This document shows positions 12,501 to 36,838 of a stretch of 64,000 nt of DNA, in pieces. Position 1 is the stretch's first letter; each line of letters opens with the position of its first letter. The notes under the pieces were generated by a model. That model was given only the letters and a program-made list of their open reading frames with translations. It did no database searches and had not been told where the DNA came from. Both the position numbers and the translations under genes were made by a program. Origin of the DNA: Lentisphaera profundi (lineage in GTDB: Bacteria > Verrucomicrobiota > Lentisphaeria > Lentisphaerales > Lentisphaeraceae); the NCBI RefSeq assembly GCF_028728065.1, contig NZ_CP117811.1:372001-436000 (forward strand). The letters are read 5' to 3'.

Positions 12501-12510
12501 GGAGTCAAAG

Positions 12511-13485: not shown

Positions 13486-13500
13486 ATGAGGAATAGGACC

Positions 13501-14757: not shown

Positions 14758-14767
14758 GGAGAAAGTT

Positions 14768-15136: not shown

Positions 15137-15137
15137 A

Positions 15138-15800: not shown

Positions 15801-16221
15801 GTCTAGGAAGAATTTAGTCCTGGGCGAACCTGTCCCCGCAGGTGCTCCTAATGGTAGGGAACGGTGGTGTTTGAATAACATCATCGTGCGTGCCGAAGGT
15901 ACGCTGCAGAGCGTTTCCTTCATACCTTCGGCATGAATATTATTTTTTTAACAATACCCACCGGATAAATCCGGTGGCTACCATACTACATACCTTCGGC
16001 ATGTGCTTAAGTTCCCTATCATTACAGGTGCTCGTGTCAGGCATGGATCATCTGTGCCTACAGCTGGGAGGCTTTCTTTTTCACGATTGACCATATCACG
16101 CCGCTTAGTATTTTATAAATGCTTCGCACACGAGAGGACGCTATTCCCTCTAACTCCCCAGTCCTGGGCCAGGCGATTTGAGTGCTTCGCACCCACTTAC
16201 GCCGTTAGGTGGTTAATCGTG
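15801..16221. repeat. Non-coding stretch of short palindromic repeats
   Basis: No credible gene lies between the converging units. It holds two copies of CATACCTTCGGCATG (15921-15935 and 15989-16003) with an inverted partial copy near 15890. It also has a near-perfect hairpin, CCACCGGAT and ATCCGGTGG around two bases (15958-15977), and CAGGTGCTCG...GGCATGGAT (16025-16048), a variant of which recurs at 49398-49418. A 66-codon frame over it is an artefact of the repeats. These look like dispersed intergenic repeat elements and may also end transcription. Confidence 0.55.
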
Positions 16222-17595: not shown

Positions 17596-17600
17596 AAGTT

Positions 17601-18416: not shown

Positions 18417-18435
18417 TTTTAATGTCTCCAAATGA

Positions 18436-20736
18436 TTAACGCACACGCGTCATTTTTTTAAGTAAAATAAAGCCGATGATGAGCGCAAATAAAATACCTA
18501 CGCCAACAGCAATGATCGTGAATAAATTTTCAACGAGGAAACGCTCGCCTTTTTCGACAATTTTTTCTTCAGTTGTTTTCTTGAGTGCGACGGGCTTAAT
18601 AGATTCCTTGCTAATGAAATCAGTCCAAATGATTTCACCTGTGCTTAAATCTTTGATTTCACCTTGCAGATTCAGGGCTGATTTATCACCAGAGTTATTG
18701 ACTTGGGCACGGCCTGTGAAGAACGCGAGTTTAATGTCAGGCGTCTTGTTGCCAACGAGGTAGGATGAAATGTAGTTAAGGTCGACTTGTCCTCCTTTGA
18801 ATTCACCGAGATCGCGTAACACTCTGCGCATGAGGTGACGACGGTCGTTGGATACCGTATCGAAACGATGAAAGGACATCAAACCCATAGTTCTCGAACT
18901 AAGCTTCGAAATCAGAATGTCCTCTAGGTTTTTATTCCCAGATTCAAAAGGTGCCACAATGACTTTGTATTTACTGTTGATTTTACTTGCCAGGCTATTG
19001 GCCATCTCATCGGCAGCTTCAAAAGCGAGTTTTTGACTCGTTGTATCTAGAGCTGAGTTGGAGGTATTTGAATTAGGCTCGATATCATAGAATTCACCTT
19101 CAAGGGTTTTCTTGAAGTACATACGTCCATCTAAGCCACTGAGCATGATGGTGAGTTTAACTAATGTTTTATTAGCCGTTTTTTCTACGCCGCGAACTTC
19201 GCCAGAGAGGATGGCGTCAACTGGATAGGCCTTAGCAATTGCTTTGCGCGTCTCAGCGGTAAGTGAATTGGCCAAAGTTTTATCATGGAGGACTTTTTTC
19301 CAATCGTGGGGATTAGTTGTGTAGAATACATACTTTGATTGGTGATTCGATAATTCGTCTGAGATGATATCGTAAAGTTTATGCTTATCGTTAAAGAAAG
19401 GCAGAATAGCAATATTTTTGACATCAAAATCTTTGTTGAGCAATTTACCTGCGCTGTAGGCTGCATCCTCGGCAGCTTTTTCGATTTTGGAGTCAAATTC
19501 GAAAGCTTCAACTTGTGAATCTTCAGAAGGGTAGGTGACATCGATAAAAGATGAGGTGACAATTTTCAGTGATTTGATATCGTAGAGGTAGAATTGTAAA
19601 GCAACTCGAACACGACCATGTTGTCCAATTACTGAGCGAACTTTACCTTTGACAATAGCTTGGATTCCTTGGAATTTAGCATCTTCAATTTTAACTAAAG
19701 TTTCGGGATCAAATAGGTCGTCGTAACCATCGGCAGCAATATTGTATTCTTGAGATATAGCATCCCATTCTTTACGATCACGGGTAAAGAATTCGAAGTC
19801 AGTACTTGTGCCGGGGAGTTTTGCAGAAATGATGTCAGATAAATTAAAGCGATCATTTTCTAAAGGAATGAAAGCGACTCTTTTGTATTGACTGGAGAAA
19901 TCCGCTATTTTGGCAATGATTTGTTGTGCGGCAATTCCGGTTGCCTTGTCAATTAGAATAGTGTTGGCCGTCATCGGGCGATTACTCGGCTGGGAGCTTT
20001 TGACCTGGGGACTAAAACTGAAGTAGCCCATGAGCGAGGAGTGCTCCCAAGGAGTTTGCTGTTGTTGAGTCGAGGAAACCACATCGCCACGGACTTTTTT
20101 AAACATTTCTTCAATGCTCAAGGGCTCGTGGATATGTTTAAGCAGTGCCGCAGTATAAGGAGAGTTTCTGCCATTGACGGAATTGATGGCGATATTGCCT
20201 GGGTTGGTAGCAAAAGCGATGTAGGAACCTGTGGGGGCTTTCATCTCCTTGAAAGTTCCCTGAAGTGCTGTCTTAGTGCCAGCGAAAGAGCGAGTGAGTT
20301 TATTGCGGCAAGCATCGACGATAATAATATTGACACGTGTTTTTTTCTGTTCCATGACCGAGAGAATATTATTAACGGGAATGAGATCACTTGCACTGAG
20401 GGCATTGATAGGAGCCAGGCAGTTATTATCTTTATATTGAATACCATGTCCTGAGTAGTAGAAGAGCACTTCGTCGCCTTCGTTCAGTTTATTGGCGAAC
20501 TCACGAATCGCACTTTTGACATCACTACTTGTGGCATCGGTACGAAGAACAATTTCGAAATTCGAGGCCTTTAGTACTTTTGCGAGATCTTTTGCGTCGT
20601 TATTGGGGATTTCGCCTAAGTTGCCTTGTTCTGCGGGGTAATTACCGCAGCCAATGACTAATGCCACGCGTTTGGCATGAGTTGTCAGGCTGATAAAGAA
20701 TAAAATTAAAAGTGGAAGAATTTTTTTTGCTGACAT
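18436..20736 (-). CDS. Exported caspase-family peptidase (C14) with three CsgG/TolB-like domains and a C-terminal anchor
   Basis: A 766-residue protein. A signal peptide (1-21) precedes a caspase-fold domain (about 22-245) with the dyad in YYSGHG (His) and VDACRN (Cys). Three similar domains follow, starting at RVAFIPLEND (about 288), KNIAILPFFND (about 445) and YKVIVAPFESG (about 610). Each has the hydrophobic strand, proline and polar turn of the CsgG/TolB-N/FlgO group, and two carry AIVKGKV or AILSGEV strands. A last helix (about 735-758) with a KKMTRVR tail anchors it. The peptidase should therefore lie in the periplasm. First gene of unit D; ribosome site GAGAGGG. Full dyad, so active peptidase is likely; substrate unknown. 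Confidence 0.9.
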   Translation of the reverse strand: MSAKKILPLLILFFISLTTHAKRVALVIGCGNYPAEQGNLGEIPNNDAKDLAKVLKASNFEIVLRTDATSSDVKSAIREFANKLNEGDEVLFYYSGHGIQYKDNNCLAPINALSASDLIPVNNILSVMEQKKTRVNIIIVDACRNKLTRSFAGTKTALQGTFKEMKAPTGSYIAFATNPGNIAINSVNGRNSPYTAALLKHIHEPLSIEEMFKKVRGDVVSSTQQQQTPWEHSSLMGYFSFSPQVKSSQPSNRPMTANTILIDKATGIAAQQIIAKIADFSSQYKRVAFIPLENDRFNLSDIISAKLPGTSTDFEFFTRDRKEWDAISQEYNIAADGYDDLFDPETLVKIEDAKFQGIQAIVKGKVRSVIGQHGRVRVALQFYLYDIKSLKIVTSSFIDVTYPSEDSQVEAFEFDSKIEKAAEDAAYSAGKLLNKDFDVKNIAILPFFNDKHKLYDIISDELSNHQSKYVFYTTNPHDWKKVLHDKTLANSLTAETRKAIAKAYPVDAILSGEVRGVEKTANKTLVKLTIMLSGLDGRMYFKKTLEGEFYDIEPNSNTSNSALDTTSQKLAFEAADEMANSLASKINSKYKVIVAPFESGNKNLEDILISKLSSRTMGLMSFHRFDTVSNDRRHLMRRVLRDLGEFKGGQVDLNYISSYLVGNKTPDIKLAFFTGRAQVNNSGDKSALNLQGEIKDLSTGEIIWTDFISKESIKPVALKKTTEEKIVEKGERFLVENLFTIIAVGVGILFALIIGFILLKKMTRVR

Positions 20737-20866
20737 GGTTACCCTCTCATATTGTTGATGTATAAAAATAGTTTTTCTAGTTGTATATACAAAGCATTCA
20801 AAAGTTCTGGCCGATGATTTAGCTTTGATTTAATCATCTTTAAACGCTCATTTAAGTTTTGTGTTG

Positions 20867-20899
20867 AAGGTATTTCGAGCCTTATGAACTTTTCTGACA
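20867..20899 (-). promoter_or_regulatory. Shared ECF-like promoter motif, site D
   Basis: On the minus strand, TGTCAGAA, 13 bases, TCGAAATACCTT, reading toward the caspase gene about 130 bases away. It stands nearly back to back with site C (16 bases between), so the divergent units are driven from one short control region. Confidence 0.78.
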
Positions 20900-20914
20900 A
20901 ATAATCATAAAAAA

Positions 20915-20947
20915 TGTCAGAAAAAGTTTTTTATGACGAATGAGCTT
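20915..20947 (+). promoter_or_regulatory. Shared ECF-like promoter motif, site C
   Basis: TGTCAGAA (20915-20922), 13 bases, ACGAATGAGCTT (20936-20947), reading toward the SPFH-like gene at 21021 and leaving a leader of roughly 70 bases. Confidence 0.8.
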
Positions 20948-21020
20948 TAGTCAAAAACAGTTTAAGCAATAAGCTAAAGTGTTATGTTTATGAGAAAGTT
21001 AATTTACGAGGAGCTTGGTT

Positions 21021-22457
21021 ATGGGATTATTTAGTGATAAATGCGACTGCGGCGCGAAGGTGAAAAAAGCTGCAAGATTTTGTAATACGTGTGGCAAGGG
21101 AGCTCCCGGAGGCTGGGTAAAGTGTTACTCTTGTGGGAAGTGGGTAGGCAATGAATCAAAGCATTGCGCTCACTGCAATTACGATTTGAAGCCTGAAGAG
21201 CGTGGTCAGATTTATGATAATAAATTCAGCAAAGATCCCACCCTTTTACTCTCTAAATTAGATTTAAAATTTTGTTCAGCGCGAACTGAGTCTGGTTTGA
21301 CCCTGGATACCGGGCAGATGGCCTTTGTTGTGGATGGAGATGAATCCTCACTTGTGGAGTCTGGCAATCTAGATGTCAAATCTTTGGCAAAAATAGGGGC
21401 TCATGCTTGGTTGCTTAACCTAGATCTGCTCGTGGTGCCACTTTGGGCGGAGAAAGTTCAAAGTGCCGACCTCATGGAATTTGATGTCTATTCGGAATTG
21501 ATTGTGACTTGGGATCAGCAAGCACTTAGTAAAAATGGTATTGAACTACTCGCAAGCAAAGAAAACTTGAGTTTAGAGCAAGTGAAAGAACTGGTCTCCA
21601 AAGCCGCCAAGGATGTATCTCTCAAACTGGTGAGAGCATATAAACTGAGTGAATTATTATTTAATCCTCATGAACGCATCAACTTTGATACTGAATTACA
21701 AAAAGTAATTAGGCTTGAACTCTCACGCTTAGGTTTGAGAGTGATACATTTTGCTGTGCCTCAGTTGGAAGGCAAGGAAATGCGCCAGGCAATGGCGAGA
21801 GAAAAAGATAAAGTTGAAGCGGCCAAAGAACTCGAATATAATCTGCGTATGCGTGAGATCCTCCAAGAAGATAACTTAGATCAATTAAAATCTGAAGATG
21901 AAGTCAAGGAATACGCGGCACAATTAGCCAATCAATTCGATATTAAACAAGATAAACGCGATCACGATTTAAACTTACTTCAGCAAGTTCATCGCCACGA
22001 AATCGATGGCAAAGAACTCGGTTTTAAATTGGCGGAAGAAACTAAGATTAAAGAGCACAACTTAGCAATGGCAACCAAGGAAATGGCTTTTGATGATAAA
22101 GCCAAAGATCATCAGATTAAACAAGATAAGAAGCAATTGAATTTCGATGTGGAAGAATCGGAGAAATGGCTTGATGTGAAGCGAAAGAAAAACGCTGTCA
22201 GCCGTGAAGATGAATTTGCCCGCCTAGAAAAATATAGCAAGTTCGATCTTCAAAGTCTAATTGCCGCACTTCCTAAAGCTCAGGCCGAGAACTTAGTGAA
22301 ATTCAATCAAGCTAATTTGCGTGAAGGTCAACCCGATGTGGTGATCTTAGAAATGATCAATCGTTTTCCAGAGATGGAGTCAATCTTAAAAAATAAAATG
22401 ACCCCGGATGCAGATTTACTTGCCAAGCTCAGCGATTTTTTGAAAAGTAAATCCTAG
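21021..22457 (+). CDS. Double zinc-ribbon SPFH/band-7-like coiled-coil protein
   Basis: A 478-residue cytoplasmic protein. Two zinc ribbons lead (CDC with CNTC; CYSC with CAHC, within 1-55). A domain at about 65-270 follows the SPFH/prohibitin plan, with paired strands and the LSRLGLRVIHFAVPQLEG turn typical before the coiled coil. A long charged coiled coil (about 260-420) and a helical tail complete it. SPFH proteins oligomerise on membranes; without a membrane segment this one may be recruited through partners. Start chosen at 21021 for its GAGGAG site. Promoter site C precedes it. Confidence 0.78.
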   Translation: MGLFSDKCDCGAKVKKAARFCNTCGKGAPGGWVKCYSCGKWVGNESKHCAHCNYDLKPEERGQIYDNKFSKDPTLLLSKLDLKFCSARTESGLTLDTGQMAFVVDGDESSLVESGNLDVKSLAKIGAHAWLLNLDLLVVPLWAEKVQSADLMEFDVYSELIVTWDQQALSKNGIELLASKENLSLEQVKELVSKAAKDVSLKLVRAYKLSELLFNPHERINFDTELQKVIRLELSRLGLRVIHFAVPQLEGKEMRQAMAREKDKVEAAKELEYNLRMREILQEDNLDQLKSEDEVKEYAAQLANQFDIKQDKRDHDLNLLQQVHRHEIDGKELGFKLAEETKIKEHNLAMATKEMAFDDKAKDHQIKQDKKQLNFDVEESEKWLDVKRKKNAVSREDEFARLEKYSKFDLQSLIAALPKAQAENLVKFNQANLREGQPDVVILEMINRFPEMESILKNKMTPDADLLAKLSDFLKSKS

Positions 22458-22535
22458 GAAAAAGATGTCCAAAGATATAGATATGAGTGTGGGTGATATG
22501 CCCACGATGAAGGGTGATAAAAAATTAAGGGATAC

Positions 22536-22640
22536 CCCTCTTTTTATCCGCCCGTGTGGCAACACCTCCCCGCCGGAGTGAGGCGGTATAATCCCCTGCT
22601 TTTTATAGCAGACTTGGGACTCCGTCCCCATCCCTGCAAG
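22536..22640. repeat. GC-rich palindromic insert
   Basis: A GC-rich block within AT-rich sequence. It contains several hairpins, such as CTGCTTTTTATAGCAG and GGGACTCCGTCCC. It interrupts the kinase remnant and resembles the material at 28060-28340. Edges are approximate; no clear duplication of target bases was seen. Confidence 0.45.
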
Positions 22641-22687
22641 GTGTGCCCACCTTGAGAGGCGATAAAAAATTAAAAGTTGTGGGAACT

Positions 22688-22720
22688 TGTCAGAAAGTCA
22701 TTTATTTGACGAATGACCTT
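22688..22720 (+). promoter_or_regulatory. Shared ECF-like promoter motif, site B
   Basis: TGTCAGAA (22688-22695), 13 bases, ACGAATGACCTT (22709-22720), ending 20 bases before the lipoprotein start at 22741. GGAAC just upstream (GGAACTT overall) also resembles the classic ECF -35 element. Confidence 0.8.
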
Positions 22721-22740
22721 AAAATAACGAGGTGATTTTG

Positions 22741-23169
22741 ATGAAATTAATAATGTGTTTATGCGCCAGTATTTTGATGGGCTGTACTTCAAGCTTGCAA
22801 GTCGAGGATGTCTTAGCCCAAAATGAGTACAAGAAGTTTAATGCAGTCGCCTCGCAAGATAAGCAGGCTGATGAGCTGAATGAATTGCTCGGGCTATCGA
22901 AGCAATTGGCGAAGCAAGGCCGCAATCGTGATGCAGCTCGAATCCTTCATGAACTGAGTAAAGATTATGAATCATTGGGCAATGCTTTTGAAAATGATTG
23001 TCGTAGGGAAGCCATTGTTCAGTACTGGAAAGTGGGTGATGAGGATAAAGTTCTGGAGATATGGGGAGAAATGGAAGAAGAAGTCTTTGGAGAATTCCAT
23101 CAAAATGATTCAGTAGAGAAGATTGTGGCTGAGATTGTTTGTAGACGAGAAAATGCTAGACTAAATTAA
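22741..23169 (+). CDS. Lipoprotein paralogous to the one at 12069
   Basis: A 142-residue lipoprotein with lipobox LMGC (Cys about 15). The mature helical part aligns with the lipoprotein at 12069 through the signature FENDCxREAxxQxWxxG and the preceding GRxxxAAR helix. The ATG at 22741 is chosen over a GTG nine bases earlier because GAGG is properly spaced. First gene of unit B, 16 bases before the kinase at 23186. Having one such paralogue lead unit A and the other lead unit B suggests a matched role, perhaps outer-membrane sensors for the two arms. Confidence 0.8.
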   Translation: MKLIMCLCASILMGCTSSLQVEDVLAQNEYKKFNAVASQDKQADELNELLGLSKQLAKQGRNRDAARILHELSKDYESLGNAFENDCRREAIVQYWKVGDEDKVLEIWGEMEEEVFGEFHQNDSVEKIVAEIVCRRENARLN

Positions 23170-23185
23170 TGTATAAGTCAATGAA

Positions 23186-25057
23186 ATGAGTTCTTATGTC
23201 ATGAATGAAATAGAGTATTCTAGAACCGACCCGCTATTTAAGACGAGTGAGTTGAGCGAAAAGCCCTCACTACCTTTTTTAGTGAATAAGAGAACTGATA
23301 CCTTCCCAAAGGAGAAATCTAGTTTTGCTAAATATAAGGGCTTAGAAAGCATTGGAGAGGGCGCTTCTGCAAAAGTTTACAAAGCCTATGATGAACAATT
23401 GGATCGTTATGTTGCTTTAAAAATACTGCGTCTGCAAATGCAGTTAGATAAAGACTCGATGCAGCGTTTTGAGCATGAGAGGAAACTGATGGCCAAGCTT
23501 TCTATCGCTGGGATTGTCCCCGTCTATGAACAGGGCAATTGTGATGGCATGGAATTTTTTGCGATGGAGTACGTGGAAGGCCTCACTTTTGATAAGTGGC
23601 TCAAGGTAAATCAGCCATCTTTAGAAAATATCTTAAAAAAGTTGGCTGAATTAGCTCAGATTATTGCAAGACTCCACGAGAAAAATATTATTCATCGGGA
23701 TATAAAACCCCAAAATATCATGGTGACCAATGAAGGGGGCTTGCGTTTAATGGATTTGGGGATTGCCAAGGCGATAGATCAAGATGTGTTTTTTACCGCC
23801 CATGGCAATTTGCCTTGTACGCCGGCCTATTTGTCGCCTGAAGCGATTATCAATAAAAAGACCGATATACTAGAATTAGATTTATACGCGCTCGGCTTAG
23901 TGGCCTTTGAAGCGGTCTTTAAAAAGTTTGCTTATGATATCCAAGGTTTGCCCATAGAAGAGGCACTTACTTGTATAACAAAGAGTCAGGTACAGACTCC
24001 TAATGATCCCGACGTACCAAGTTGGCTGAAAGTCGCTATTGAGAATTTACTTGATCATGATCCACGAAAAAGAATGTCTGCACAAGAATTTCACTTAGAA
24101 TTGATGAAGTATCAAGATTTGGCCAAGGGGTCTATTATTTTGAGCACCAGTCAAGGAAGTAATACCTTTAAGAAAAGCAGAATTTTGCTGGCACCAACTT
24201 TAATTACTCTAGTTGTGGCGGCTTACTTTTTCTTTGGAAAAGATTTCTTTAGCAGCCCATCAATTTCAGAAGACCTTCAAAATACTGAGATCGTAATTGA
24301 GTCCGAAGAAAAGAGTGAGCTAGAGTTAAACGATTATGCCAATTACCGTGAATTGGCCGCGGGAAGTCAGGAGGCCTTTGATCAGCAAAAGCAATTGCTT
24401 GAGGAGGGTTACCCCCTAGAATTAAGTTTAGCTAAATCGGGAATAATTTTTCGTTTAATTCCCGCAGGAGAAATTCAGCTAGGGGCTGATCTTTTACAAA
24501 ACAAAAGCCCTTTTTATATGGGGAAATATGAAGTGACTCAAGAGCAATGGGATAAAGTGATGCGCAATAATCCCTCTAAGTTTAGTGGTGCAGCTTTATC
24601 TCCAGTAGAAAATGTGACTTGGTTTGAGTGCCAATATTTTATTCGTGAATTAGAGCGTTTTGAAGGTCTGGCCGAAGGATCCATAAAGTTACCCGATGAA
24701 GAGCAATGGGAATTTGCTTGTCGTGGGGGAACCAAAACACCTTTTTATAATAGTGAGCAAGCAAAAGATTTAGCGGAAGTCGCAAATTTTTATGAAAATT
24801 CTGAGCAGAAACCCTGTGCAGTGGGACAGTTTAAAGCGAATGTTTATGGGCTTTACGATATGCATGGCAATGTCTATGAATGGTGTGAGGATACTGAATC
24901 AAAAGGACAGCGATTGATAAAGGGTGGTTCGTGGATGAAAAATAGTTTCTTTTGTCAGTCTTCAGGAAAGTCATTTTTGGCTGAAGATAGTAAGAATTCT
25001 CAGACGGGCTTGAGATTGATTTTAGATTATAAGAAAAATAAAAAATTAAGGGATTAG
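23186..25057 (+). CDS. Ser/Thr kinase with periplasmic SUMF1/FGE-like domain
   Basis: A 623-residue single-pass receptor kinase. The kinase domain (about 48-315) has GEGASAKVYKA, ATP lysine 79, HRDIKPQN (170-177) and DLG in place of DFG (190-192). A membrane helix lies at about 332-350. The outside part has the pre-domain LAAGSQEA...GYPLELSLAKSG and a SUMF1-like domain (about 425-615) with YEVTQEQWDKVM, LPDEEQWEFACRGG, HGNVYEWCED and GGSW. Of the two FGE active-site cysteines only the second position is kept (GGSWMKNSFFC), so sulfatase maturation is unlikely and ligand sensing likelier. The start lacks a clear ribosome site. Its last codons (KKLRD) lie in a 17-base sequence that also occurs at the break in the remnant at 22465. 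Confidence 0.9.
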   Translation: MSSYVMNEIEYSRTDPLFKTSELSEKPSLPFLVNKRTDTFPKEKSSFAKYKGLESIGEGASAKVYKAYDEQLDRYVALKILRLQMQLDKDSMQRFEHERKLMAKLSIAGIVPVYEQGNCDGMEFFAMEYVEGLTFDKWLKVNQPSLENILKKLAELAQIIARLHEKNIIHRDIKPQNIMVTNEGGLRLMDLGIAKAIDQDVFFTAHGNLPCTPAYLSPEAIINKKTDILELDLYALGLVAFEAVFKKFAYDIQGLPIEEALTCITKSQVQTPNDPDVPSWLKVAIENLLDHDPRKRMSAQEFHLELMKYQDLAKGSIILSTSQGSNTFKKSRILLAPTLITLVVAAYFFFGKDFFSSPSISEDLQNTEIVIESEEKSELELNDYANYRELAAGSQEAFDQQKQLLEEGYPLELSLAKSGIIFRLIPAGEIQLGADLLQNKSPFYMGKYEVTQEQWDKVMRNNPSKFSGAALSPVENVTWFECQYFIRELERFEGLAEGSIKLPDEEQWEFACRGGTKTPFYNSEQAKDLAEVANFYENSEQKPCAVGQFKANVYGLYDMHGNVYEWCEDTESKGQRLIKGGSWMKNSFFCQSSGKSFLAEDSKNSQTGLRLILDYKKNKKLRD

Positions 25058-25119
25058 GCGTAGCGCTCTAATCATTTAAGTTATAGTATTTAGACAGTTA
25101 GGAATAATGGGGAGTGATG

Positions 25120-28008
25120 ATGTCCGGGGATGATATAGATGTGAGTGTGGGTGATATGCCCACTATGAAGGGCAATGATCCGCCGGTGTCGATTGATGTC
25201 AGCTTAGATGATATGGCAACCATGCCAGGAGATAATCAAGAGAAGCTTGCCATTGTTGATCGCTATGAATTATTGGAAATGCTGGGACGCGGGGCTTTTG
25301 GCGCGGTCTTTTTGGCGCGAGATACAGTTTCGGATCAGCTCGTGGCATTAAAGACACTTCCTCCCGAGCTCAGTCACTCCGCCGAAGATCTAGAAGCCGT
25401 GCGCGAAAATTTTAAATTAGTCTCTGACCTGAGTCACCCTAATATTGCCCAACTTAAATTTTTACATCAAGTAGCCGAAGTGAACAGTTTACAGGGAGGC
25501 GTTCATATAGTTAGAGGTGAATACTTAGTGGTGATGGAATATATCGAGGGATCGACTCTAAGTTCATGGAAAAAGCAGTTTTCAGATAGAAAAGTTCCTA
25601 TTGAGAAAGCCCTCGATATTTGTACACAAGTAGCCGCAGCTCTAGATTATGCACATGGGAAACAAATCATTCACCGGGATATCAAGCCCGGTAATATAAT
25701 GATTGAGGCAGATGGCCAGGTTCAAGTGCTCGACTTTGGTTTGGCGGCAGAAGTACGTAGCTCCATGAGTCGCCTGAGTACAGAGACGGGGTCTACCTCG
25801 GGTACACGGCCGTATATGCCTCCTGAGCAGTTATTAGGGCAAGGACAAAATCACAGTGCAGATCAGTATGCACTAGCGGTGATGTTCTATGAACTTATTT
25901 CTGGGACGGTGCCCTTTTTGCCAGTATTTGAGAGTGGGGATATGCAGCTGATTTTAGCTGTAGTGCCTAGCCAAGCAGCAGTGCCGCTCGACGGACTCAG
26001 TAAAAAAGAAAATAGAGTCTTATTGAAAGCCCTGTCCAAAAATAAAAGTGATCGCTACCCATCCTGCATGGAATTCATGGAGGCCTTTGCGGGCGGAAAA
26101 ATCAAAAAAGTGCGCTCGCCGCAAAAGAAAAAAGGCAAGATCCCGATGATGGTGGCTTTTGTCGTTTTACTTACGCTTTTCTTTGCTTGGTGGGGTGTTG
26201 ATGTAAAACAAAATAAACCTATAGAAATTACGAATGAAAATTCAGGGATAAATGAAGATTTAATTCGCTCTAATGATCAGCAAGAGCGGGCGGTAGAAGT
26301 CAAAGATGAAAAGCAGGACAAGCTTAGGGAGCTTTTGCGCTTAGCGCAAAGTGCCTACGATGCTAATCAGTGGGTAGAGGCCAATGGCTTTGCTCAAAAA
26401 GTTTTAGCCTTGGATCCCCAAAATAATCAAGCTAAGCAAATTCAGCAAAAAGTAGCCGATCAAATGGGGATGAATCAAGTGGTGCCAGTGAAATCGCGAG
26501 CGGAAGTTCTCTACGAGCAAGTCATCAATAGCCGTGAGATAGATAGCTCCGATGGTTTTGCTAGTCGACTAATGGAACTCCGCTCCAAATCGAAGATGGC
26601 TAAGACTTATTTAGAAGTGAAAAATTATGCTAAGGCCGTGAGTGCTTACCAAGATTTAGAGTTTTCAGTTAAGGACTATATCAAAAGCGATCTTGAACGA
26701 GATGCACTAAAATTAAAAATCGCGAAGATGAGTCAACTAAATACAGGCTTATCGAATTTTGGCGTAGTGGAATTTGATGAAGCCAAGGCAGCCGTAAAAA
26801 TAGCTGAACGCTCTTTGCCAAAAGGTGATTTTGCGATAAGTACAAAGCTTTACCAAGCAGCAGAACAAAAAATCATCAGTGCGAACCAAGTGGCAAAAAA
26901 AGCCTATGAAAAAGATGAAGCTCAGCGAAAGTTAGTCGCAGAAGCGACGCGTGTGCAGTCTCAAGTACCGCAGTTATTATCCCAGCACCAGACATGGCTA
27001 GGTTATGATGAATCTAAAGAAGCCTACGCTAAAGCAAGGCAGGCCTATAGCTCAAAAAACTATGTCGAGGCAATAAAACTTTATGGCTTGTATGCAAATA
27101 AATTTAAGGCTATGAAATCCGATCTAAGCCCACAAGTACAAAAGTATTTATCGAGGGGCATGAAAGTCGTTAAAAATGCGACTTATAGCTCATTAAATGG
27201 TTTGGCTGCGGGTAGTGCCGAAATGCAATTGCGCCAAAAAGAATGGGTTGCCAAGGGTTGGCCCCTAGAATTAGAATTGGCAAAGACAGGTCTGCGTTTT
27301 CGCTTGGTTCCACCAGGAGACTTCATGATGGGGAGTCCACGTAAGGAAGAAGGGCGAGATGCAGATGAAGCTCAAAAGCAAGTGACGATTTCGAAGCCTT
27401 ATTATCTGATGAAGACTGAAATCACTCAGGCTCAATGGACGAAAATCATGGGTAAAAATCCCAGTTATTTTAAAAATGCGGGCTCCAATGCTCCTGTAGA
27501 AAGTATTAGCTGGGAAGATTGCCAAAACTTTATAAGAAGACTGTCCTCTTATGAAGGTGCGATCAACATTTCCTTGCCAAGTAAAGCTCAGTGGGAATAT
27601 GCCTGTCGTGCGGCGACTAAAAGTTCAATTTATAATGGCAACATGAAAATACATGGTGAGCGTAATGCACCGCTATTAGATGAAATAGCCTGGTACGGGG
27701 GTAATAGTGGAGTTACTTATGCAGGAGCTTATGATAGTAGCTATTGGAAAGAGAAGCAATACGATCACAGTCGGGCGGGTACTCACCCCGTTGCGCTAAA
27801 AATGGCAAACGCTTTAGGCATGTACGATATGCAGGGCAATGTATGGGAATGGTGTGCAGATTGGTACAATAGTGATCGTCAAAACAGAGTTTATCGTGGT
27901 GGTAGCTGGAACGATGATGCCCAGGACTGTCGTTCGGCGAATGGCTACGGCTATTCACCCGGACAAAAGACCTACGACCTTGGGGCTCGCCTGGCTTTGA
28001 GTCATTAA
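25120..28008 (+). CDS. Ser/Thr kinase with coiled-coil/TPR linker and SUMF1/FGE-like domain
   Basis: A 963-residue receptor kinase. Residues 5-40 hold two copies of an acidic motif, DVSVGDMPTMKGN and DVSLDDMATMPGD. The kinase domain (about 48-330) has GRGAFGAVFLA, Lys78, HRDIKPGN (185-192), DFG (205-207) and PPE. One membrane helix (about 345-362) is followed by a helical region with TPR-like repeats (about 395-680). The SUMF1-like domain (about 720-960) has LPSKAQWEYACRAA, QGNVWEWCADW and GGSWNDDAQDC. As in the previous kinase only the second FGE cysteine position is present. The start at 25120 has GGGGAG five bases upstream. Third and last gene of unit B. Confidence 0.92.
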   Translation: MSGDDIDVSVGDMPTMKGNDPPVSIDVSLDDMATMPGDNQEKLAIVDRYELLEMLGRGAFGAVFLARDTVSDQLVALKTLPPELSHSAEDLEAVRENFKLVSDLSHPNIAQLKFLHQVAEVNSLQGGVHIVRGEYLVVMEYIEGSTLSSWKKQFSDRKVPIEKALDICTQVAAALDYAHGKQIIHRDIKPGNIMIEADGQVQVLDFGLAAEVRSSMSRLSTETGSTSGTRPYMPPEQLLGQGQNHSADQYALAVMFYELISGTVPFLPVFESGDMQLILAVVPSQAAVPLDGLSKKENRVLLKALSKNKSDRYPSCMEFMEAFAGGKIKKVRSPQKKKGKIPMMVAFVVLLTLFFAWWGVDVKQNKPIEITNENSGINEDLIRSNDQQERAVEVKDEKQDKLRELLRLAQSAYDANQWVEANGFAQKVLALDPQNNQAKQIQQKVADQMGMNQVVPVKSRAEVLYEQVINSREIDSSDGFASRLMELRSKSKMAKTYLEVKNYAKAVSAYQDLEFSVKDYIKSDLERDALKLKIAKMSQLNTGLSNFGVVEFDEAKAAVKIAERSLPKGDFAISTKLYQAAEQKIISANQVAKKAYEKDEAQRKLVAEATRVQSQVPQLLSQHQTWLGYDESKEAYAKARQAYSSKNYVEAIKLYGLYANKFKAMKSDLSPQVQKYLSRGMKVVKNATYSSLNGLAAGSAEMQLRQKEWVAKGWPLELELAKTGLRFRLVPPGDFMMGSPRKEEGRDADEAQKQVTISKPYYLMKTEITQAQWTKIMGKNPSYFKNAGSNAPVESISWEDCQNFIRRLSSYEGAINISLPSKAQWEYACRAATKSSIYNGNMKIHGERNAPLLDEIAWYGGNSGVTYAGAYDSSYWKEKQYDHSRAGTHPVALKMANALGMYDMQGNVWEWCADWYNSDRQNRVYRGGSWNDDAQDCRSANGYGYSPGQKTYDLGARLALSH

Positions 28009-28377
28009 TATTGATTTATGAAAGAGCTAAAACGGCGAAGTAATAGCTGTTTATAAGGGGGGATGAGTCCCCGTATAATAACAGCACGAACAAATGTAAG
28101 TTCTTATGATAAATGCGGGCGAGACGCCCGCGCTCCCAGGCAAGACGTTTCTTGTGAATTTAATGGATATGGCCGAAAAGTAGCTTAAAAATCCGCTTTG
28201 ATACAAGTCTCCAAAATCCCAAAAAAGTGCTTTCCTCCAATGAGTTATGAGGAACTTAATAGCATTGTTGGGGCAGAGTCCCATATGTACTAAAAGCTAT
28301 AAATACCTCCGGCGGGCGGAGATCCTCCGCGGGCGGACTAGCTTCGCAAAAAAAACTAAAATTTCTGAAGGTCCCTA
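28009..28377. repeat. Non-coding stretch with GC-rich palindromes
   Basis: Between the last kinase and the IS66 element I see no gene. It contains GGGGATGAGTCCCC (near 28060), the perfect hairpin GCGGGCG-AGA-CGCCCGC (28115-28131) followed by CGCTCCCAGG, and a repeated GGCGGGCGGA / GCGGGCGGA block (28311-28337). These resemble small dispersed palindromic elements and the insert at 22536. Confidence 0.5.
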
Positions 28378-28385
28378 GCATTAAG
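28378..28385. repeat. Target-site duplication of the IS66 element, left copy
   Basis: GCATTAAG, directly repeated at 30339-30346 on the other side of the element. Eight bases is the length typical of IS66 insertion. Confidence 0.9.
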
Positions 28386-28434
28386 GTAAGCGTCAATTGA
28401 GCTGAATATTTGAATGCCTATTTCGAAAAAAAGT

Positions 28435-29922
28435 CTATTTCTTCCAGTTTTGTGGTAGGAGTTCCATTAAATTTTCTTTTGGGTGATCAATGATTCTCCT
28501 GAGCACATCCTCTAAGTATTCTTTTGGATTGATACCCAGCTTACGACAAGTCTGGATTAAGGAGATGATATTGGCAGCCGCTTGGCCGCCTTTTTCACTG
28601 CCGAAGAAAAGCCAGTTTTTTCTACCAATAGTAAGCGGACGAATAGCGCGTTCACTCACATTGTTATCTATGCGAGCATCCGGATAAGCAAGAAAAGCTT
28701 TAAATGCTTCTTGCCGTTTAAGTAGGTACTCCATTGCCGTTTTGAGTTTGCCTTTGGGCTCACATGCTTTGTAGTAATGATCTTGAATCGTCTTTAATAG
28801 AGCTTCAACAAAAGGCTTTGTTTTCCTATTGCGAAAGCTCTGTCGCTTTGCCGAAGTACCAAGCGCCCAAGCATCCTGTTCGAGTTCAAAGAGCTTATCC
28901 ATCAAAATAAGCACTTGTTTACAGAATTCGTTTGGATTGGGTGTGTCAAAAAACTTACGCCTGGCATGAGCCCAGCAAGCCTGCCAATCGATACCATCAA
29001 GCTTATCCATTTTTTCATACGCAGCAAAAGCATCGGCATGAAAAACTCCTTGAAAGTCTTTCATTCGATCTAATGTATGGGAGTGTGAACGGTCTTTGGT
29101 GAATTCGAACCAAACGAGAGGAGGGTCTGGACCATCGCCGCCGACATAAACCCAAATCCGACCTTCTTGAAGCTTACCTTTACCTTTTGTTTGAAGCTTA
29201 ACAGGGCTGTCATCTGTAAAAACTCTTGATGAGTTTAAAATTTGATCTCGTAATAAATCACCTAAAGGTTGGAGAGTTTTTCCTAACTGGAGAACCCAGT
29301 TGGAAAGCGTTTGTCGCGCAATAGTAAGTCCATCTCGTTTGAATTGCTCTTCGATACGATAAAGAGGTAAATGGTCGGCATATTTTGAAATGAGTATATG
29401 TGACAACAAGCTCACATCAGCACGACAGCCTGTTATCGGATGGCTGGGAACTAGAGCGGAGATAACTCCTGCCTTGGGCTTATTTGGAATATTGTATTTA
29501 CGTACACGAGTCTCTATGACTTTGTAACGACCATGAACATAAACAAGTTTTTCTGATGTATCGAATCCCATGAGTTTCAGTTCTACACCAGTTATGGGAT
29601 CAACTTTTTCATCTTCGGGCAAATCAATGATTTTAATTTCGCGTTCAGCATTCTCAGGGAAATTGAAATGCGTAAAGGGCTTGCGTTTCTTCTTCTTTTT
29701 TAGGGTATTTACTTTGGGTTCTTCATCTCTTTCTGGTGAATTTGAATCGCCCAGATCCTTAAGGTATTCAGTCCACTCAGGAAAAGTATCTGAGTTATCA
29801 AAGACTACAGTCTCTTTTTTACGACCATACAGCTGGGCTTTTAGATAGGTGTTTTCCTCTTCTAAAAACACAACTTTTTTGGTGAGGTCTGAGATAGTTT
29901 TAGTCATGAAATAATATAGCAT
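28435..29922 (-). CDS. tnpC: IS66 transposase TnpC
   Basis: A 495-residue DDE transposase. An N-terminal coiled coil (TKKVVFLEEENTYLKAQL) leads to an IS66-type DNA-binding middle and a catalytic core. The core has acids in FTDDSPV and VFHADAFAAY and the conserved NNVSERAIRPLTIGRKNWLF, then the C-terminal GINPKEYLEDVL. An ATG five codons in (29907) is an equally possible start. No frameshift or stop, so likely active. Confidence 0.93.
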   Translation of the reverse strand: MLYYFMTKTISDLTKKVVFLEEENTYLKAQLYGRKKETVVFDNSDTFPEWTEYLKDLGDSNSPERDEEPKVNTLKKKKKRKPFTHFNFPENAEREIKIIDLPEDEKVDPITGVELKLMGFDTSEKLVYVHGRYKVIETRVRKYNIPNKPKAGVISALVPSHPITGCRADVSLLSHILISKYADHLPLYRIEEQFKRDGLTIARQTLSNWVLQLGKTLQPLGDLLRDQILNSSRVFTDDSPVKLQTKGKGKLQEGRIWVYVGGDGPDPPLVWFEFTKDRSHSHTLDRMKDFQGVFHADAFAAYEKMDKLDGIDWQACWAHARRKFFDTPNPNEFCKQVLILMDKLFELEQDAWALGTSAKRQSFRNRKTKPFVEALLKTIQDHYYKACEPKGKLKTAMEYLLKRQEAFKAFLAYPDARIDNNVSERAIRPLTIGRKNWLFFGSEKGGQAAANIISLIQTCRKLGINPKEYLEDVLRRIIDHPKENLMELLPQNWKK

Positions 29923-29953
29923 AACCCCATGATTTTTCAGCTATAAAACCAGG

Positions 29954-30265
29954 CTATTTGATCTTAAAATAGGCCCCTTTACAGCAGTGGATCATTAGCA
30001 GAAATTCCCGAAAACTAAGCTCAGTTTTAGCTTCGGACATGTCGCTAAAAGTTCCGCGCTCCAACTGTTTATTGAAAATACAAAAACCACCTTCATCCCA
30101 GTAGAGACCTTTCAATAAATTACGCCGTCGATTTATGAAAAGGTAGACATCTCCTGCAAAGAGATTTTCCAGATTACTTAACGCGGTTAAGCCATTGAAG
30201 CCTTTGCGGAGGTTCACGGGTTCGGGATGTAGTTTTAACTTACGATCTTTAAAATATTCTAACAT
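29954..30265 (-). CDS. tnpB: IS66 accessory protein TnpB (Orf2)
   Basis: A 103-residue protein with the family core VNLRKGFNGL, DVYLFINRRRNLLKGLYWDEGGFCIFNKQLERG. TnpB is needed for IS66 transposition in studied members, though its exact role is unclear. A GGAG lies about five bases before the ATG. It is transcribed first, 31 bases before tnpC. Confidence 0.92.
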   Translation of the reverse strand: MLEYFKDRKLKLHPEPVNLRKGFNGLTALSNLENLFAGDVYLFINRRRNLLKGLYWDEGGFCIFNKQLERGTFSDMSEAKTELSFREFLLMIHCCKGAYFKIK

Positions 30266-30338
30266 TGTATCTCCTGGGGTAAGCCCAGACTCTAATTCAA
30301 CTACTCTCCCTCGGGATATGGTTCAAATTGCCCTTTAC

Positions 30339-30346
30339 GCATTAAG
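30339..30346. repeat. Target-site duplication of the IS66 element, right copy
   Basis: GCATTAAG, identical to 28378-28385. Joining the two copies restores the pre-insertion sequence, which continues into the end of the sigma-FHA gene. Confidence 0.9.
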
Positions 30347-30350
30347 GAGC

Positions 30351-31541
30351 TTATGCTCCAATAAAAACAAAAAGAGCTTGGGAAAGTTGGATGATGTCGC
30401 CACTTTTTAAGTAGGCGGAATGACTCTGCTCACCATTAATGAAAGTTCCATTCGTACTATTTTCATCTTTGATTTGTATGCCATTATCATTAGAAGTAAT
30501 GGAAGCGTGAAGGCCAGAGACAGAAGATTCATTAACTTTAAAAGTATCTGGTCCTTGGATATTAGAGCCGAGTAAAACTTTCTCGCCCAAGTTGATCCAT
30601 TGGTAGCCATCTTGATCACAGTGTAATAAAGCCGCTTCTTTAAAGGGTTTTCTAGGGGCTTTTTGAAGAACTTGGTGAATATATTTTAATTGCTGTGTGA
30701 GTTTTTCTGGTGCGAGATTTAAAACAGTCGTGCCCCTCAGAGAGCGTCTTTGATAAATACATTCAGCCAGTAGATTTTTGAGACCTTTGGTTTTTGTTCC
30801 GGGTTCATTTTTGAGCCTTTGGTCAATTAACTGTCCTAGGCTATAGGAACTTTCTTCTTCAATTAATTGTAGCTCACGATCTCCTAAATTATTGATCACG
30901 GAGATGAATTCTAGTTCCAATTTATTAAGAAAACGAGTGCGGTGTTGATAGACCGAGTCAACACTAATTTGGAGTGTGTTTGAGACGTCCTGTACACTTA
31001 AGCCATCTAAAACATACATCGTGAAGGCTTTGTAGTGGGTAGGATCCATATCTTTGTATAATTGACGCATGGCCTGTGAAAGAATGCTCTGAAGCCAGAT
31101 TAAGTCATCGTTTGCGCCCATTGCATCTGGATGAAGTTCGGGGACTTGATCTAAGTCGGCATATACGGCAGCATCGGACTGACTGATATCACGGACTTGG
31201 TTCTTGTTGTCGTGATAATCCTTTTGAGAACGAATATCCCGTTGCTTGGTTTCGCGGCGAAAGGCATCAATGGCGCGGCGTTTGACTAAGGTCTTTAGCC
31301 AAGGACGGAATTTGCCTTTTGTCTGGTCGTAATTAAAGTTTTTACACAAGTCAATGCATACTTCTTGAAAGACTTCTTGAGCGAGGCTCGGGTTACAGCC
31401 GCAGCGACGCGCCCAGCCATTGACAACTTCCCAGTAAAACTCGGTAAATTCCTCCCATACAGAAAAATCGTCTTGTTTTTGCAAACGCAAAATCATGGTC
31501 TGTTGGGTCATTTTCAAATCTTTACTCATGAAGGAAATCAT
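30351..31541 (-). CDS. ECF-like sigma factor fused to a C-terminal FHA domain
   Basis: A 396-residue transcription factor. The N-terminal half follows the planctomycete-type sigma plan. Region 2 is WEEFTEFYWEVVNGWARRCG...AQEVFQEV (about 25-75) and region 4 (about 165-220) has a helix-turn-helix, LSVQDVSNTLQISVDSVYQHR. A helical linker leads to an FHA domain (about 310-396) with VSGLHASI and ENSTNGTFING. The phosphate-binding Arg of the FHA GR motif is Ser here (LLGSNIQG), so phosphopeptide binding may be weakened. It probably shares transcription with the transporter gene whose stop is adjacent; alternative starts at 31529 or 31511 are possible. Before the IS66 insertion it ended about 0.37 kb from the kinase island, making it a candidate regulator of it. 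Confidence 0.85.
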   Translation of the reverse strand: MISFMSKDLKMTQQTMILRLQKQDDFSVWEEFTEFYWEVVNGWARRCGCNPSLAQEVFQEVCIDLCKNFNYDQTKGKFRPWLKTLVKRRAIDAFRRETKQRDIRSQKDYHDNKNQVRDISQSDAAVYADLDQVPELHPDAMGANDDLIWLQSILSQAMRQLYKDMDPTHYKAFTMYVLDGLSVQDVSNTLQISVDSVYQHRTRFLNKLELEFISVINNLGDRELQLIEEESSYSLGQLIDQRLKNEPGTKTKGLKNLLAECIYQRRSLRGTTVLNLAPEKLTQQLKYIHQVLQKAPRKPFKEAALLHCDQDGYQWINLGEKVLLGSNIQGPDTFKVNESSVSGLHASITSNDNGIQIKDENSTNGTFINGEQSHSAYLKSGDIIQLSQALFVFIGA

Positions 31542-33419
31542 TTAGAATTTGAAGAAGTGAGGGATAATTAGTGAAGCACAAGAGATGACTAATAAGGAGA
31601 GAGGAAGACCACTTTTTAGGTAATCAGTGAATTTATAATTGCCAGGTGCGTATACCATCATATTCGTTTGGTAGCCGATAGGAGTCGCAAAGGATGCTGA
31701 GCCCGCAATGGCTAAGCCAATGACGAAAGGTAGTGGAGAAACATTCATCGAGTTAGCCACGTCAACCACGATGGGGAAAGTTAGGGCTACGGCGGCTGTG
31801 TTGGTAATGAGTTCAGTCAATACCCAAGTGAATAAGCAGCATAAGAGCAAAGCAACTTGAGGATTATCTGCAGGGATAAGGAAAGTGAGGCTATGAGCGA
31901 TTTGGGCGGCGGCACCACTGGTTTCTAGACCGACGGAGAGACCGAGTGCGGCTCCAATGACAACGAGGATATTGAGGTCGATAGCTTTTAGTGGAGAAGC
32001 TTGAAGGTCCTTTTGAAGAGCAATCATGATAAGTGAAGCTAAGAGAGCGGAAGTCATGATATTTATGATGCCAAGAGCCGGCAAGGCCGACATAAAAAAA
32101 GTAATGATGAGAGGGTATATAGGTGGCTTCACAGAAGTTTTTTCGGTGTTTTCAACTTCGGATAAAATAGTGAATTCAGAACTATTTTTCCAGAAGTCGA
32201 CAAAAGTAGGGCGTGCAGCAATGAGTAGGGTATCACTTGCTTTTAGTTTCGTTTGAAAGAAATTGGCGAGGTCTTGCGAGCCACGGTGCAGGGAGATTAC
32301 GGCAGCCATATAGCGTTGGCGGAACCAGATTTGCTCAATACTTTTTCCCGTTAAGGCGGAATTTTGTGGAATCATTAATTCATAAAGTTGGTACTCTTCA
32401 TTATCGGAATCGAGATCAACTGGGATGAGGCCGGGGATGTTTTGTAGCTCATCCATGTGAGACTTTTCACCTGAGAAAGTGAGGATGTCACCACAGAGAA
32501 GAATCCAGTTACGAATATTGGTGTTAGCAGTGTTTCCCGAAGGACGACTGGCACTCATAATTACGAGACCATCAATGTGCTGAAGGTTGGTGTCTTTGAC
32601 GCGTTTGCCATCGACAGGACTTACTGGGCTTACTTTCATTTTCATGATATAAGTACGAATTTGTTCCTTATCGTGACTCTCATTTTTTGGGAGTAATTGA
32701 ATGGCAAAAAAGACAATCCAAATCACACCTAAGATTAAACAGAAGATAGCAATAGGAGTAAGGGTAAACATACCGAGGCCTTGATGGAGTTCCGGAATGT
32801 CGGACTGTTGCATTTTCCCATGAACAATAAGGTTAGTCGATGTGCCAATGAGTGTGCACATGCCACCTAAAGTAGTGAAGAATACCATGGGTAGTAATAG
32901 CCTAGAAGGGGAGATCGTATGTTGGTTAGCCCAGCGCTTGATAGCGGGGATGAACATCGCCACAACGGGAGTGTTGTTCATAAAAGCTGATAGAGGAGTG
33001 ACGACCACGGCAATTCTGAGTGCGGCCTTTTTTTCGTTGGTTTCATTATTGAGGATTTTTTGGGAAGCATATTCGAGCCAGCCGCTATTACGAACACCTT
33101 CGGCAACAATGAAGAGTGCACCCACAGTAATCAGTGTGGGTGAACTAAAGCCAGAGAGGAGTTGTCCGCTGTAATCAATAAGTTGTTCTTTATCCATGCC
33201 GCGTTGGTGGCCATGGATGGCGGAACCTAGGAGTAGGAAAGTGAAACTTCCTCCCGCACAAACAGATGGCTGTGCAACATCTTTAAAGATAGAGAGGAAC
33301 ATGAGTCCAGTTAGGAGCATGGTGAAAGTTGCAAAGGAATAGAGATTCATCGAGAACATGGCGACTAGAGCAATGCCAGGAAAAATCAGGTAAGTACAAA
33401 TAGGGCTGGGTTTATTCAC
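31542..33419 (-). CDS. DASS/SLC13-type anion transporter with TrkA-C (RCK-C) domains
   Basis: A 625-residue permease with about eleven membrane helices split by a cytoplasmic insert (about 215-415). The insert holds two RCK-C-like domains, with YELMIPQNSALTGKSIEQIW and DTLLIAARP in the second. The family signatures NNTPVVAMFIP and, near the C-terminus, ELITNTAAVALTFPI and SFATPIGYQTN are present. Such SLC13-type proteins move sulfate or dicarboxylates with sodium. Given the sulfatase in the window, sulfate is a fair guess. The start overlaps the flavoprotein gene by eight bases. Confidence 0.88.
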   Translation of the reverse strand: MNKPSPICTYLIFPGIALVAMFSMNLYSFATFTMLLTGLMFLSIFKDVAQPSVCAGGSFTFLLLGSAIHGHQRGMDKEQLIDYSGQLLSGFSSPTLITVGALFIVAEGVRNSGWLEYASQKILNNETNEKKAALRIAVVVTPLSAFMNNTPVVAMFIPAIKRWANQHTISPSRLLLPMVFFTTLGGMCTLIGTSTNLIVHGKMQQSDIPELHQGLGMFTLTPIAIFCLILGVIWIVFFAIQLLPKNESHDKEQIRTYIMKMKVSPVSPVDGKRVKDTNLQHIDGLVIMSASRPSGNTANTNIRNWILLCGDILTFSGEKSHMDELQNIPGLIPVDLDSDNEEYQLYELMIPQNSALTGKSIEQIWFRQRYMAAVISLHRGSQDLANFFQTKLKASDTLLIAARPTFVDFWKNSSEFTILSEVENTEKTSVKPPIYPLIITFFMSALPALGIINIMTSALLASLIMIALQKDLQASPLKAIDLNILVVIGAALGLSVGLETSGAAAQIAHSLTFLIPADNPQVALLLCCLFTWVLTELITNTAAVALTFPIVVDVANSMNVSPLPFVIGLAIAGSASFATPIGYQTNMMVYAPGNYKFTDYLKSGLPLSLLVISCASLIIPHFFKF

Positions 33420-35704: not shown

Positions 35705-36838
35705 TTACGCTTCTTTTTTAGGAGCGGCTTCTTTCTTAGCTTTAGCAGGAGCGGCTTCTTTCTTAGGAGCAGCTTCTTTTTTAGCTTTAGCAGGAGCGGC
35801 TTCTTTCTTAGGAGCAGCTTCTTTTTTAGCTTTAGCAGGAGCGGCTTCTTTCTTAGGAGCAGCTTCTTTTTTAGCTTTAGCAGGAGCAGCTTCTTTTTTA
35901 GCTTCAGGAGCAGCGGCTTCTTTCTTAGGAGCGGCTTCTTTTTTAGCTTCAGTAGGAGCAGCTTCTTTAGCTTCAGCATCTTTTTTAGCTTTAAACGCTG
36001 CGTCTTTCTTAGCTTTCTCAGCTTTGATTTTCTCAGTTCTCTCAGCTTTAAGTTTGTCAGATCTTTCTCTGTCAGCTTTCATTTTTTCTGCTTTGTCAGC
36101 TTTAGCTTTCTCAGCTTTGATCTTGTCTTCTTTAGCTTTTTCAGCAGCTTTTGCGTCAGCAATACCTTTACCCGCAACAACAGCAGCACTGAGTTGGTCG
36201 AAGATAACTTGTACAGAACGTACTGCATCATCGTTACCAGGAATACCGTAATCAACGTCATCTGGGTTGGAGTTTGAGTCGAGGATAGAAACGATCGGAA
36301 TACCGAGAGAGTGAGCTTCTTTAATCGCGATGTGCTCTTTGTTGATGTCTACTACGACTACAACTGCAGGAGGACGCTGAAGGTCAGTGATACCAGAAAG
36401 AGAGTTTTCGAGTTTCGTTTTTTCACGACGAATTTTAGAAGCTTCTTTCTTCTTCATTTTGTCGAGAGAGCCGTCTTCTTCCATTTTCGTGTATTTCTTA
36501 AGCTTAGCAACACTTTTACGAATAGTAGTAAGGTTAGTAAGAGTACCACCTAACCAACGGTAAGAGATGTAGTGCATATTACTAGCTTTTGCCGATTCTT
36601 CCACGATTTCTTGTGATTGACGCTTAGTACCAATGAAGAGTACATCGCCGCCTTCAGCAACTGTTGAATAGAGGAATTTACAAGCATTATTAAGAGCAAC
36701 CATAGTTTTGCTCAGATCGAAAATGTGGATACCGTTTCTAGAACCATAAATGTATGGTTTCATTTTTGGATTCCAACGACGGGTTTGGTGGCCGAAATGT
36801 ACGCCGGCTTCAAGGAGGTCAGTAATTTTGATTGACAT
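35705..36838 (-). CDS. rpsB: Ribosomal protein S2 with a long repetitive Ala/Lys tail
   Basis: A 377-residue S2. The first 220 residues are an ordinary S2: MSIKITDLLEAGVHFGHQTRRWNPKM, RWLGGTLTN and a GNDDAVRS segment. A charged helix of about 70 residues follows (AKADKAEKMKADRERSDK and similar). The last 80 residues or so repeat a 15-residue unit, KKEAAPAKAKKEAAP. S2 is normally 230-260 residues. The tail resembles histone-like Ala/Lys/Pro tails and should be disordered and strongly basic; it may bind RNA. Confidence 0.96.
   Translation of the reverse strand: MSIKITDLLEAGVHFGHQTRRWNPKMKPYIYGSRNGIHIFDLSKTMVALNNACKFLYSTVAEGGDVLFIGTKRQSQEIVEESAKASNMHYISYRWLGGTLTNLTTIRKSVAKLKKYTKMEEDGSLDKMKKKEASKIRREKTKLENSLSGITDLQRPPAVVVVVDINKEHIAIKEAHSLGIPIVSILDSNSNPDDVDYGIPGNDDAVRSVQVIFDQLSAAVVAGKGIADAKAAEKAKEDKIKAEKAKADKAEKMKADRERSDKLKAERTEKIKAEKAKKDAAFKAKKDAEAKEAAPTEAKKEAAPKKEAAAPEAKKEAAPAKAKKEAAPKKEAAPAKAKKEAAPKKEAAPAKAKKEAAPKKEAAPAKAKKEAAPKKEA
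35711..35890 (-). repeat. Four 45-bp tandem repeats in the rpsB tail
   Basis: Units begin at 35711, 35756, 35801 and 35846. The two middle units are identical, the other two carry a few changes. Each codes for 15 residues (KKEAAPAKAKKEAAP in rotation). The high identity at DNA level means recent expansion by slippage and predicts length variation between strains. Confidence 0.9.

Follow-up and report, generated by a model that had tools for sequence, protein, structure and literature searches.

EmbR of Mycobacterium tuberculosis is a DNA-binding activator and a target of PknH; it is a SARP-type protein and not a sigma factor. EmbR resembles the protein described here, a sigma factor with a C-terminal FHA domain that is encoded in a 64,000-nucleotide stretch of Lentisphaera profundi DNA (the window), in that it activates transcription and bears an FHA domain at its C-terminus. 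The two FHA folds align with a Z score of 16.4 and an rmsd of 1.9 over 94 residues (2fez). However, EmbR was crystallized with a phosphopeptide, according to the title of entry 2ff4, whereas the window FHA domain lacks the phosphate-binding arginine. GarA and OdhI are small FHA proteins that are switched by their own phosphorylated tail and that keep this arginine. They provide the nearest solved folds to the window FHA domain (Z scores of 16.6 and 16.4, respectively), but no sigma factor is joined to them.

The C-terminal extensions of the ECF41, ECF42, ECF56 and CorE sigma factors are SnoaL-like, TPR-like or cysteine-rich. These sigma factors share with the window protein the use of a C-terminal domain instead of an anti-sigma factor and differ from it in that no FHA domain appears among the extensions described in the accessible portions of the literature. 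A different likeness is found in the ECF43 pairs EcfP/PknT of Vibrio and EcfK/PknS of Xanthomonas, in which an ECF sigma factor is located near a Ser/Thr kinase. In the available parts of two reports, EcfP and EcfK are switched by the nearby kinase, and the acidic DxxD motif of ECF43 is replaced by a Thr-bearing motif (PMC8999054, PMC13147305). A kinase gene (25114-28008) is likewise adjacent and convergent to the window sigma gene. However, the region 2.2 motif of the window protein reads LAQE (LAQEVFQE), with the acidic glutamate kept and no threonine. The main text of neither report contains the term FHA. Finally, the secretion-system proteins EssC, MxiG, CdsD (3gqs) and PrgH resemble the window protein in their Arg-less FHA fold with a poorly conserved phosphate site. 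Their FHA domains serve in protein contacts, and those of EssC, MxiG and PrgH dock on protein without phosphate binding, as stated in the accessible sections of two papers (PMC10765036, PMC3635987). These proteins are parts of membrane secretion systems, whereas the window protein is a transcription factor.

The sigma-FHA protein and its family

The reading frame at 30351-31541 on the reverse strand encodes 396 residues with no internal stop codon, and it is exactly this single frame in which, as originally predicted, a sigma factor is joined to an FHA domain, with both domains detected by Pfam. An alignment to the closest relative suggests that translation may start at Met5 (31529). Sigma region 2 (residues 40-99; 31245-31424) matches PF04542 (Sigma70_r2) with 43.9 bits against a cut-off of 24, and sigma region 4 (residues 171-207; 30921-31031) matches PF08281 (Sigma70_r4_2) with 21.9 bits, slightly below the cut-off of 25.7. 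The general sigma70-ECF model TIGR02937 is passed with 71 bits (cut-off 42.9); this model and region 2 identify an ECF (group 4) sigma factor, with region 4 under its cut-off. The protein had also been called a planctomycete-type sigma factor. This label has to be dropped, given that the Planctomycetaceae-specific model TIGR02984 yields 36.4 bits against a cut-off of 183.75 and only the general ECF model is passed.

The FHA domain occupies residues 297-396 (30354-30653), and PF00498 matches residues 333-386 with 46.8 bits (cut-off 20.7). An AlphaFold model built from a four-row alignment has a mean pLDDT of 70, with values mostly of 75-90 in both sigma domains and the FHA domain and below 50 in the linkers. 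In a VIA-align comparison, the rows of which span approximately residues 298-396 and thus the FHA part only, the predicted domain superimposes on GarA with an rmsd of 1.7 over 98 residues (Z score 16.6). Because the model aligns with GarA at this score, the predicted FHA domain is no chance match.

A sigma factor and an FHA domain, either fused or encoded by adjacent genes, constitute a real family. A search of the L. profundi genome (5.46 Mb, two contigs) with the window protein gave 73 matches at E <= 0.1, mostly to the sigma part and in seven cases to the FHA part; no second protein spanning both parts was among them. At phylum level, matches at E <= 1e-22 are present in 6 of 387 genomes; within the class, 46 of 197 genomes match a three-row alignment query at E <= 1e-25, most via the sigma part alone. 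Nucleotide patterns derived from the window protein alone detected no close relatives in the genome contigs, and the three-row alignment search led to four loci. Full-length two-domain relatives share 40% identity over residues 4-390 (L021/L125) and 36% over residues 10-394 (L022/L127), and the closest relative resides in genome G133. The FHA domain of L125 has retained the arginine. Named records hold three fused relatives, two from Victivallales and one from a Verrucomicrobia metagenome genome. No full-length relative was found in the genus mates G004 and G005 at E <= 1e-20.

We retrieved 40 of the class matches as a locus sample in addition to the window. The sigma factor is linked to an FHA domain in 28 of the 40 loci, within one protein in 9 and through the next or an overlapping reading frame in 19; with the window included, the FHA-linked set comprises 29 loci (10 fused and 19 separate). 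The examined stretch contains no FHA domain in the other 12 loci, at least four of which (L083, L098, L101 and L102) reach the end of their contig on the side concerned. In several loci (L074, L076 and L090), the gene directly upstream encodes a Ser/Thr kinase, in some cases with WD40 repeats; the kinases of L074 and L090 were confirmed with Pfam. We considered kinase linkage as a mark of the FHA-bearing sigma factors and rejected it. Kinases are as common near FHA-less sigma genes (6/12) as near FHA-linked ones (13/29, window included), in counts for which many flanks are shortened by contig ends, and kinase linkage is therefore not special to the FHA form. In a Victivallales locus (L126, 2180-6201), the sigma-FHA gene is two genes from that of an FGE-sulfatase protein which also has a CsgG/LpoB-like part, and the FGE part of this protein is akin to that of the kinases described below.

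The 19.7-kb island and its candidate promoters

The sigma-FHA gene forms the right end of a genomic island of approximately 19.7 kb (11802-31541) that is missing from G004 and G005. In both genus mates sampled, the matches to window positions 9708-11801 and 31542-33419 adjoin, approximately 520 bp apart, and synteny revealed no island DNA at the corresponding place. The empty site of G004 carries a cold-shock protein gene between the flanking genes, and this gene has no tblastn match in the window. DNA homology to G004 resumes at 31544, the stop codon of a transporter gene that the first ATG of the sigma gene abuts.

The island begins with a lipoprotein/ExbB/ExbD unit, followed by genes for a zinc-ribbon FHA protein (16222-17595, reverse strand), a lipoprotein and a caspase-family (C14) protein (18436-20736, reverse strand). 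The caspase protein has no relatives at E <= 1e-20 in five other genomes of the family. Next are a zinc-ribbon SPFH-like protein (21015-22457, forward strand), for which SPFH is our own label and Pfam detects zinc ribbons only, both under the cut-off, and a unit of a lipoprotein and two Ser/Thr kinases with FGE-sulfatase domains (23186-25057 and 25114-28008, forward strand). The second kinase gene is convergent to the sigma gene, and their stop codons are 2343 bp apart, separated by an IS66 element and its flanks. The IS66 element (28386-30338, reverse strand) is bordered by 8-bp target duplications (GCATTAAG, 28378-28385 and 30339-30346) and inserted 4 bp past the sigma stop codon, and the sigma gene is thus not cut.

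The zinc-ribbon FHA protein keeps the GR motif in a divergent FHA domain (hhalign E 3.6e-5). This predicted domain is real because relatives of the protein pass the Pfam FHA cut-off. The SPFH-like gene and a lipoprotein gene occur together in G133, G195 and G221 (L140, L141 and L142), and the zinc-ribbon FHA gene joins them in two of these three loci. Because they recur together, the three genes seem to be a module of their own. An exclusive tie of this module to sigma-FHA is argued against by G195 and G221, which have the SPFH-like and zinc-ribbon FHA genes and gave no match to the sigma family at E <= 1e-25.

An interpretation of the island as a defence system was not adopted; PADLOC matches the kinase-type and caspase proteins by domain only. 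A short reading frame (22465-22581) repeats the start of the second kinase (25114-25172; SVGDMPTMKG, 41 nucleotides at 95%) and resembles a broken kinase leader. The N-terminus of that kinase bears two such threonine motifs, DMPTMKG and DMATMPG. Outside the island, a gene that we take to encode ribosomal protein S2 (35705-36838) adds a long tail of Ala/Lys/Glu repeats to the protein, and its DNA contains tandem repeats.

Which promoters might the sigma-FHA protein serve? The original prediction invoked four sites without specifying them, and the best candidate set was chosen in the present analysis. A motif search identified four candidate promoters of the form TGTCAGAA-N14-CGAA, which head the lipoprotein/ExbB/ExbD unit (12006-12031, forward strand), the caspase, lipoprotein and zinc-ribbon FHA unit (20874-20899, reverse strand), the SPFH-type zinc-ribbon protein (20915-20940, forward strand) and the lipoprotein and kinase unit (22688-22713, forward strand). 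The four sites have identical spacing, are each directed at a start codon and head every island unit except IS66 and sigma-FHA. The motif occurs five times in the genome, four of them on the island, against one occurrence of a reversed-pattern control, and is found twice in G004 and not at all in G005. A looser form, TGTCAG-N16-CGAA, occurs at 7 sites in the genome versus 5 for the reversed control. Among 150 dinucleotide-shuffled versions of the island, a comparable bipartite word reached four copies in none and three copies in 49, a figure that flatters the motif because the motif was picked after the sequence had been seen. Among the loci of relatives (327,962 bases), the loose motif matched 11 times against 15 expected by chance, and no site within one mismatch was present in L140, L089, L069, L090, L141 or L142. 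Other candidates were discarded: exact bipartite words at 47 gene starts covered at most three genes per word and were mostly A/T-rich, and a GGAACTT-type motif was rejected as a shared promoter.

The sigma-FHA protein is the only sigma factor found on the island and, because it shares this mate-absent island with all four sites, the best candidate to drive them, which bears out indirectly the earlier suggestion that it is the nearest driver of a shared promoter. A rather unlikely alternative is that the four sites are read by a different sigma factor and sigma-FHA regulates something else. The genome contains approximately 60 further ECF sigma factors, any of which could read the motif, and the sigma-FHA gene itself has no motif site upstream, where the best matches show three mismatches, at background level. 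The presence of the SPFH module in two genomes in which the sigma family was not found at E <= 1e-25 also fits this alternative. It is opposed by the arrival of the sites and sigma-FHA together on one island and by the fact that the next sigma gene (42903-43415) is conserved in G004 and G005 (71% identity), neither of which has a cluster of such sites. Moreover, G133, the home of the closest sigma-FHA relative, also contains the best-matching SPFH relative in the class, on a different contig. The stretch 41326-43415 encodes this second ECF sigma factor (TIGR02989) and, after it, a Laminin_G_3 protein, and G004 and G005 retain both.

The phosphate pocket of the FHA domain

The window FHA domain reads LLGS-NIQGPD...SSVSGLHASI...DENSTNGTFING, in which LLGS is followed by SSVSGLHASI, DENSTNGTF and ING. 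Ser326 thus stands at the place of the phosphate-binding arginine of the GR motif that characterizes phosphothreonine-binding FHA domains, while the other two signatures of such domains, SxxH (SGLH) and NG (STNG and ING), are present. The reported combination of LLGS for LLGR with intact SxxHA and NG motifs was recovered in full. The Ser326 codon, TCT (30566-30564), is two base changes away from CGT. The structural FHA positions G325, H345, D359, S362, N364, G381 and D382 are retained. The three pocket loops contain no lysine or arginine, and the window FHA domain is the only one of the 29 with none. In most other Arg-less family members, the SxxH loop still has a basic residue, which is absent from the window domain.

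The arginine is kept in 3, lost in 5 and ambiguous in 2 of the 10 fused FHA domains. Its replacements in the five, window included, are Ser, Ala, Ser, Asn or Thr, and the two ambiguous domains (L087 and L088) read G-SRKA. The separate FHA domains keep it in 15 of 19 cases and have lost it in four (Cys, Ser, Ala or Thr). The difference between the two forms (3/8 vs 15/19, p 0.07 without the ambiguous rows; 3/10 vs 15/19, p 0.017 with these rows scored as lost) is suggestive only, and both p values are optimistic given that the rows compared are related. On the sigma tree, the parsimony minimum is five changes of the arginine state, and the strongly supported branches force just one. Judging from these alignments, arginine loss is recurrent across the sigma-FHA family and no peculiarity of the window protein. 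Beyond this family, the other FHA matches in the L. profundi genome keep the arginine in 8 of 12 cases and lack it in four, and the FHA domain of Chlamydia CT664 (3gqs), which aligns with the window domain at a Z score of 15.6, likewise has serine at this position. Two L. profundi proteins of approximately 990 residues, encoded approximately 4.5 kb apart (L029 and L035), contain FHA domains with GS for GR.

Has the domain simply decayed? It would then be a remnant without which the sigma factor functions, an unlikely reading to which the charge-free pocket, the insertion of IS66 4 bp downstream of the stop codon and the want of a full-length relative in the genus mates at E <= 1e-20 all lend some weight. 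However, the reading frame is open to its end and IS66 lies beyond it, the residues at the structural FHA positions are retained, and the fold prediction is a confident one. The pattern is also unlike that of one decaying gene because Arg-less FHA domains recur across the family.

It is slightly less likely still that the window FHA domain reads phosphothreonine without the arginine, through Ser342, Asn364 and backbone groups. The conserved SxxH and NG signature and the two kinases that neighbour sigma-FHA on the island would suit such a reader. Canonical phosphate binding is nevertheless unlikely because the three pocket loops, uniquely among the 29 domains, contain no Lys or Arg, including the basic SxxH-loop residue that is usual in other Arg-less members. 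Moreover, related Arg-less FHA domains of secretion systems are reported to be phosphate-independent in the portions of the literature at hand (PMC10765036, PMC3635987). With the residue that grips the phosphate lost, the window FHA domain probably binds its partner differently, and phosphate-independent partner binding, as had been proposed, is the better guess.

The second earlier proposal, that the zinc-ribbon FHA protein (16222-17595) holds the sigma factor off as its anti-sigma factor, is very improbable: the two proteins share an island and one of the four promoter-like sites heads the unit of the zinc-ribbon protein, but its relatives lie in the SPFH module of G195 and G221, where the sigma factor was not found (E <= 1e-25), and no FHA-FHA pairing as sigma and anti-sigma factor is known.

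A proposed dedicated sigma factor with a docking domain

We propose that sigma-FHA is the island's own sigma factor and that its FHA domain docks on protein without phosphate, and we assign this reading a probability of roughly 55%. As the dedicated sigma factor of the 19.7-kb island, sigma-FHA would bring RNA polymerase to the four near-identical TGTCAGAA-N14-CGAA promoters and thereby to the island's four other transcription units, which include the kinases. The ancestor of its FHA domain may have been a phosphothreonine reader, which coupled sigma factors of this type to Ser/Thr kinases; in relatives, the FHA domain is fused to the sigma factor or encoded by the next gene. Without positive charge in its pocket, the domain would most likely have become a phosphate-independent docking surface. 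The docking target may be the sigma part of the same protein, in which case the FHA domain would act as a built-in brake, or one of the island kinases, in which case it would serve as a tether.

Both C-terminal regulators of sigma factors and the switching of sigma factors by Ser/Thr kinases have precedents. A sigma-FHA fusion was not found in the open-licence papers searched, and none is described in the accessible portions of PMC8103513, PMC8999054, PMC13147305, PMC8195603, PMC11032199, PMC7159879, PMC9993120, PMC3635987 and PMC10765036. A broader and more tentative view, which we regard as possible rather than probable, is that these proteins represent an undescribed group of kinase-linked sigma factors in the bacterial class to which L. 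profundi belongs. A phosphothreonine-reading FHA partner would have been fused to the sigma factor and would then have lost phosphate reading more than once, so that a phospho-switched partner became a gate built into the sigma factor and independent of phosphate. The window protein would be the extreme member of this group and would run an island with its own four promoters. The occurrence of fused, adjacent and Arg-less forms in one family makes it a test of how a phospho-reader becomes a domain for constitutive docking. The island, with one sigma factor, four near-identical candidate promoters and two kinases, is a closed test case.
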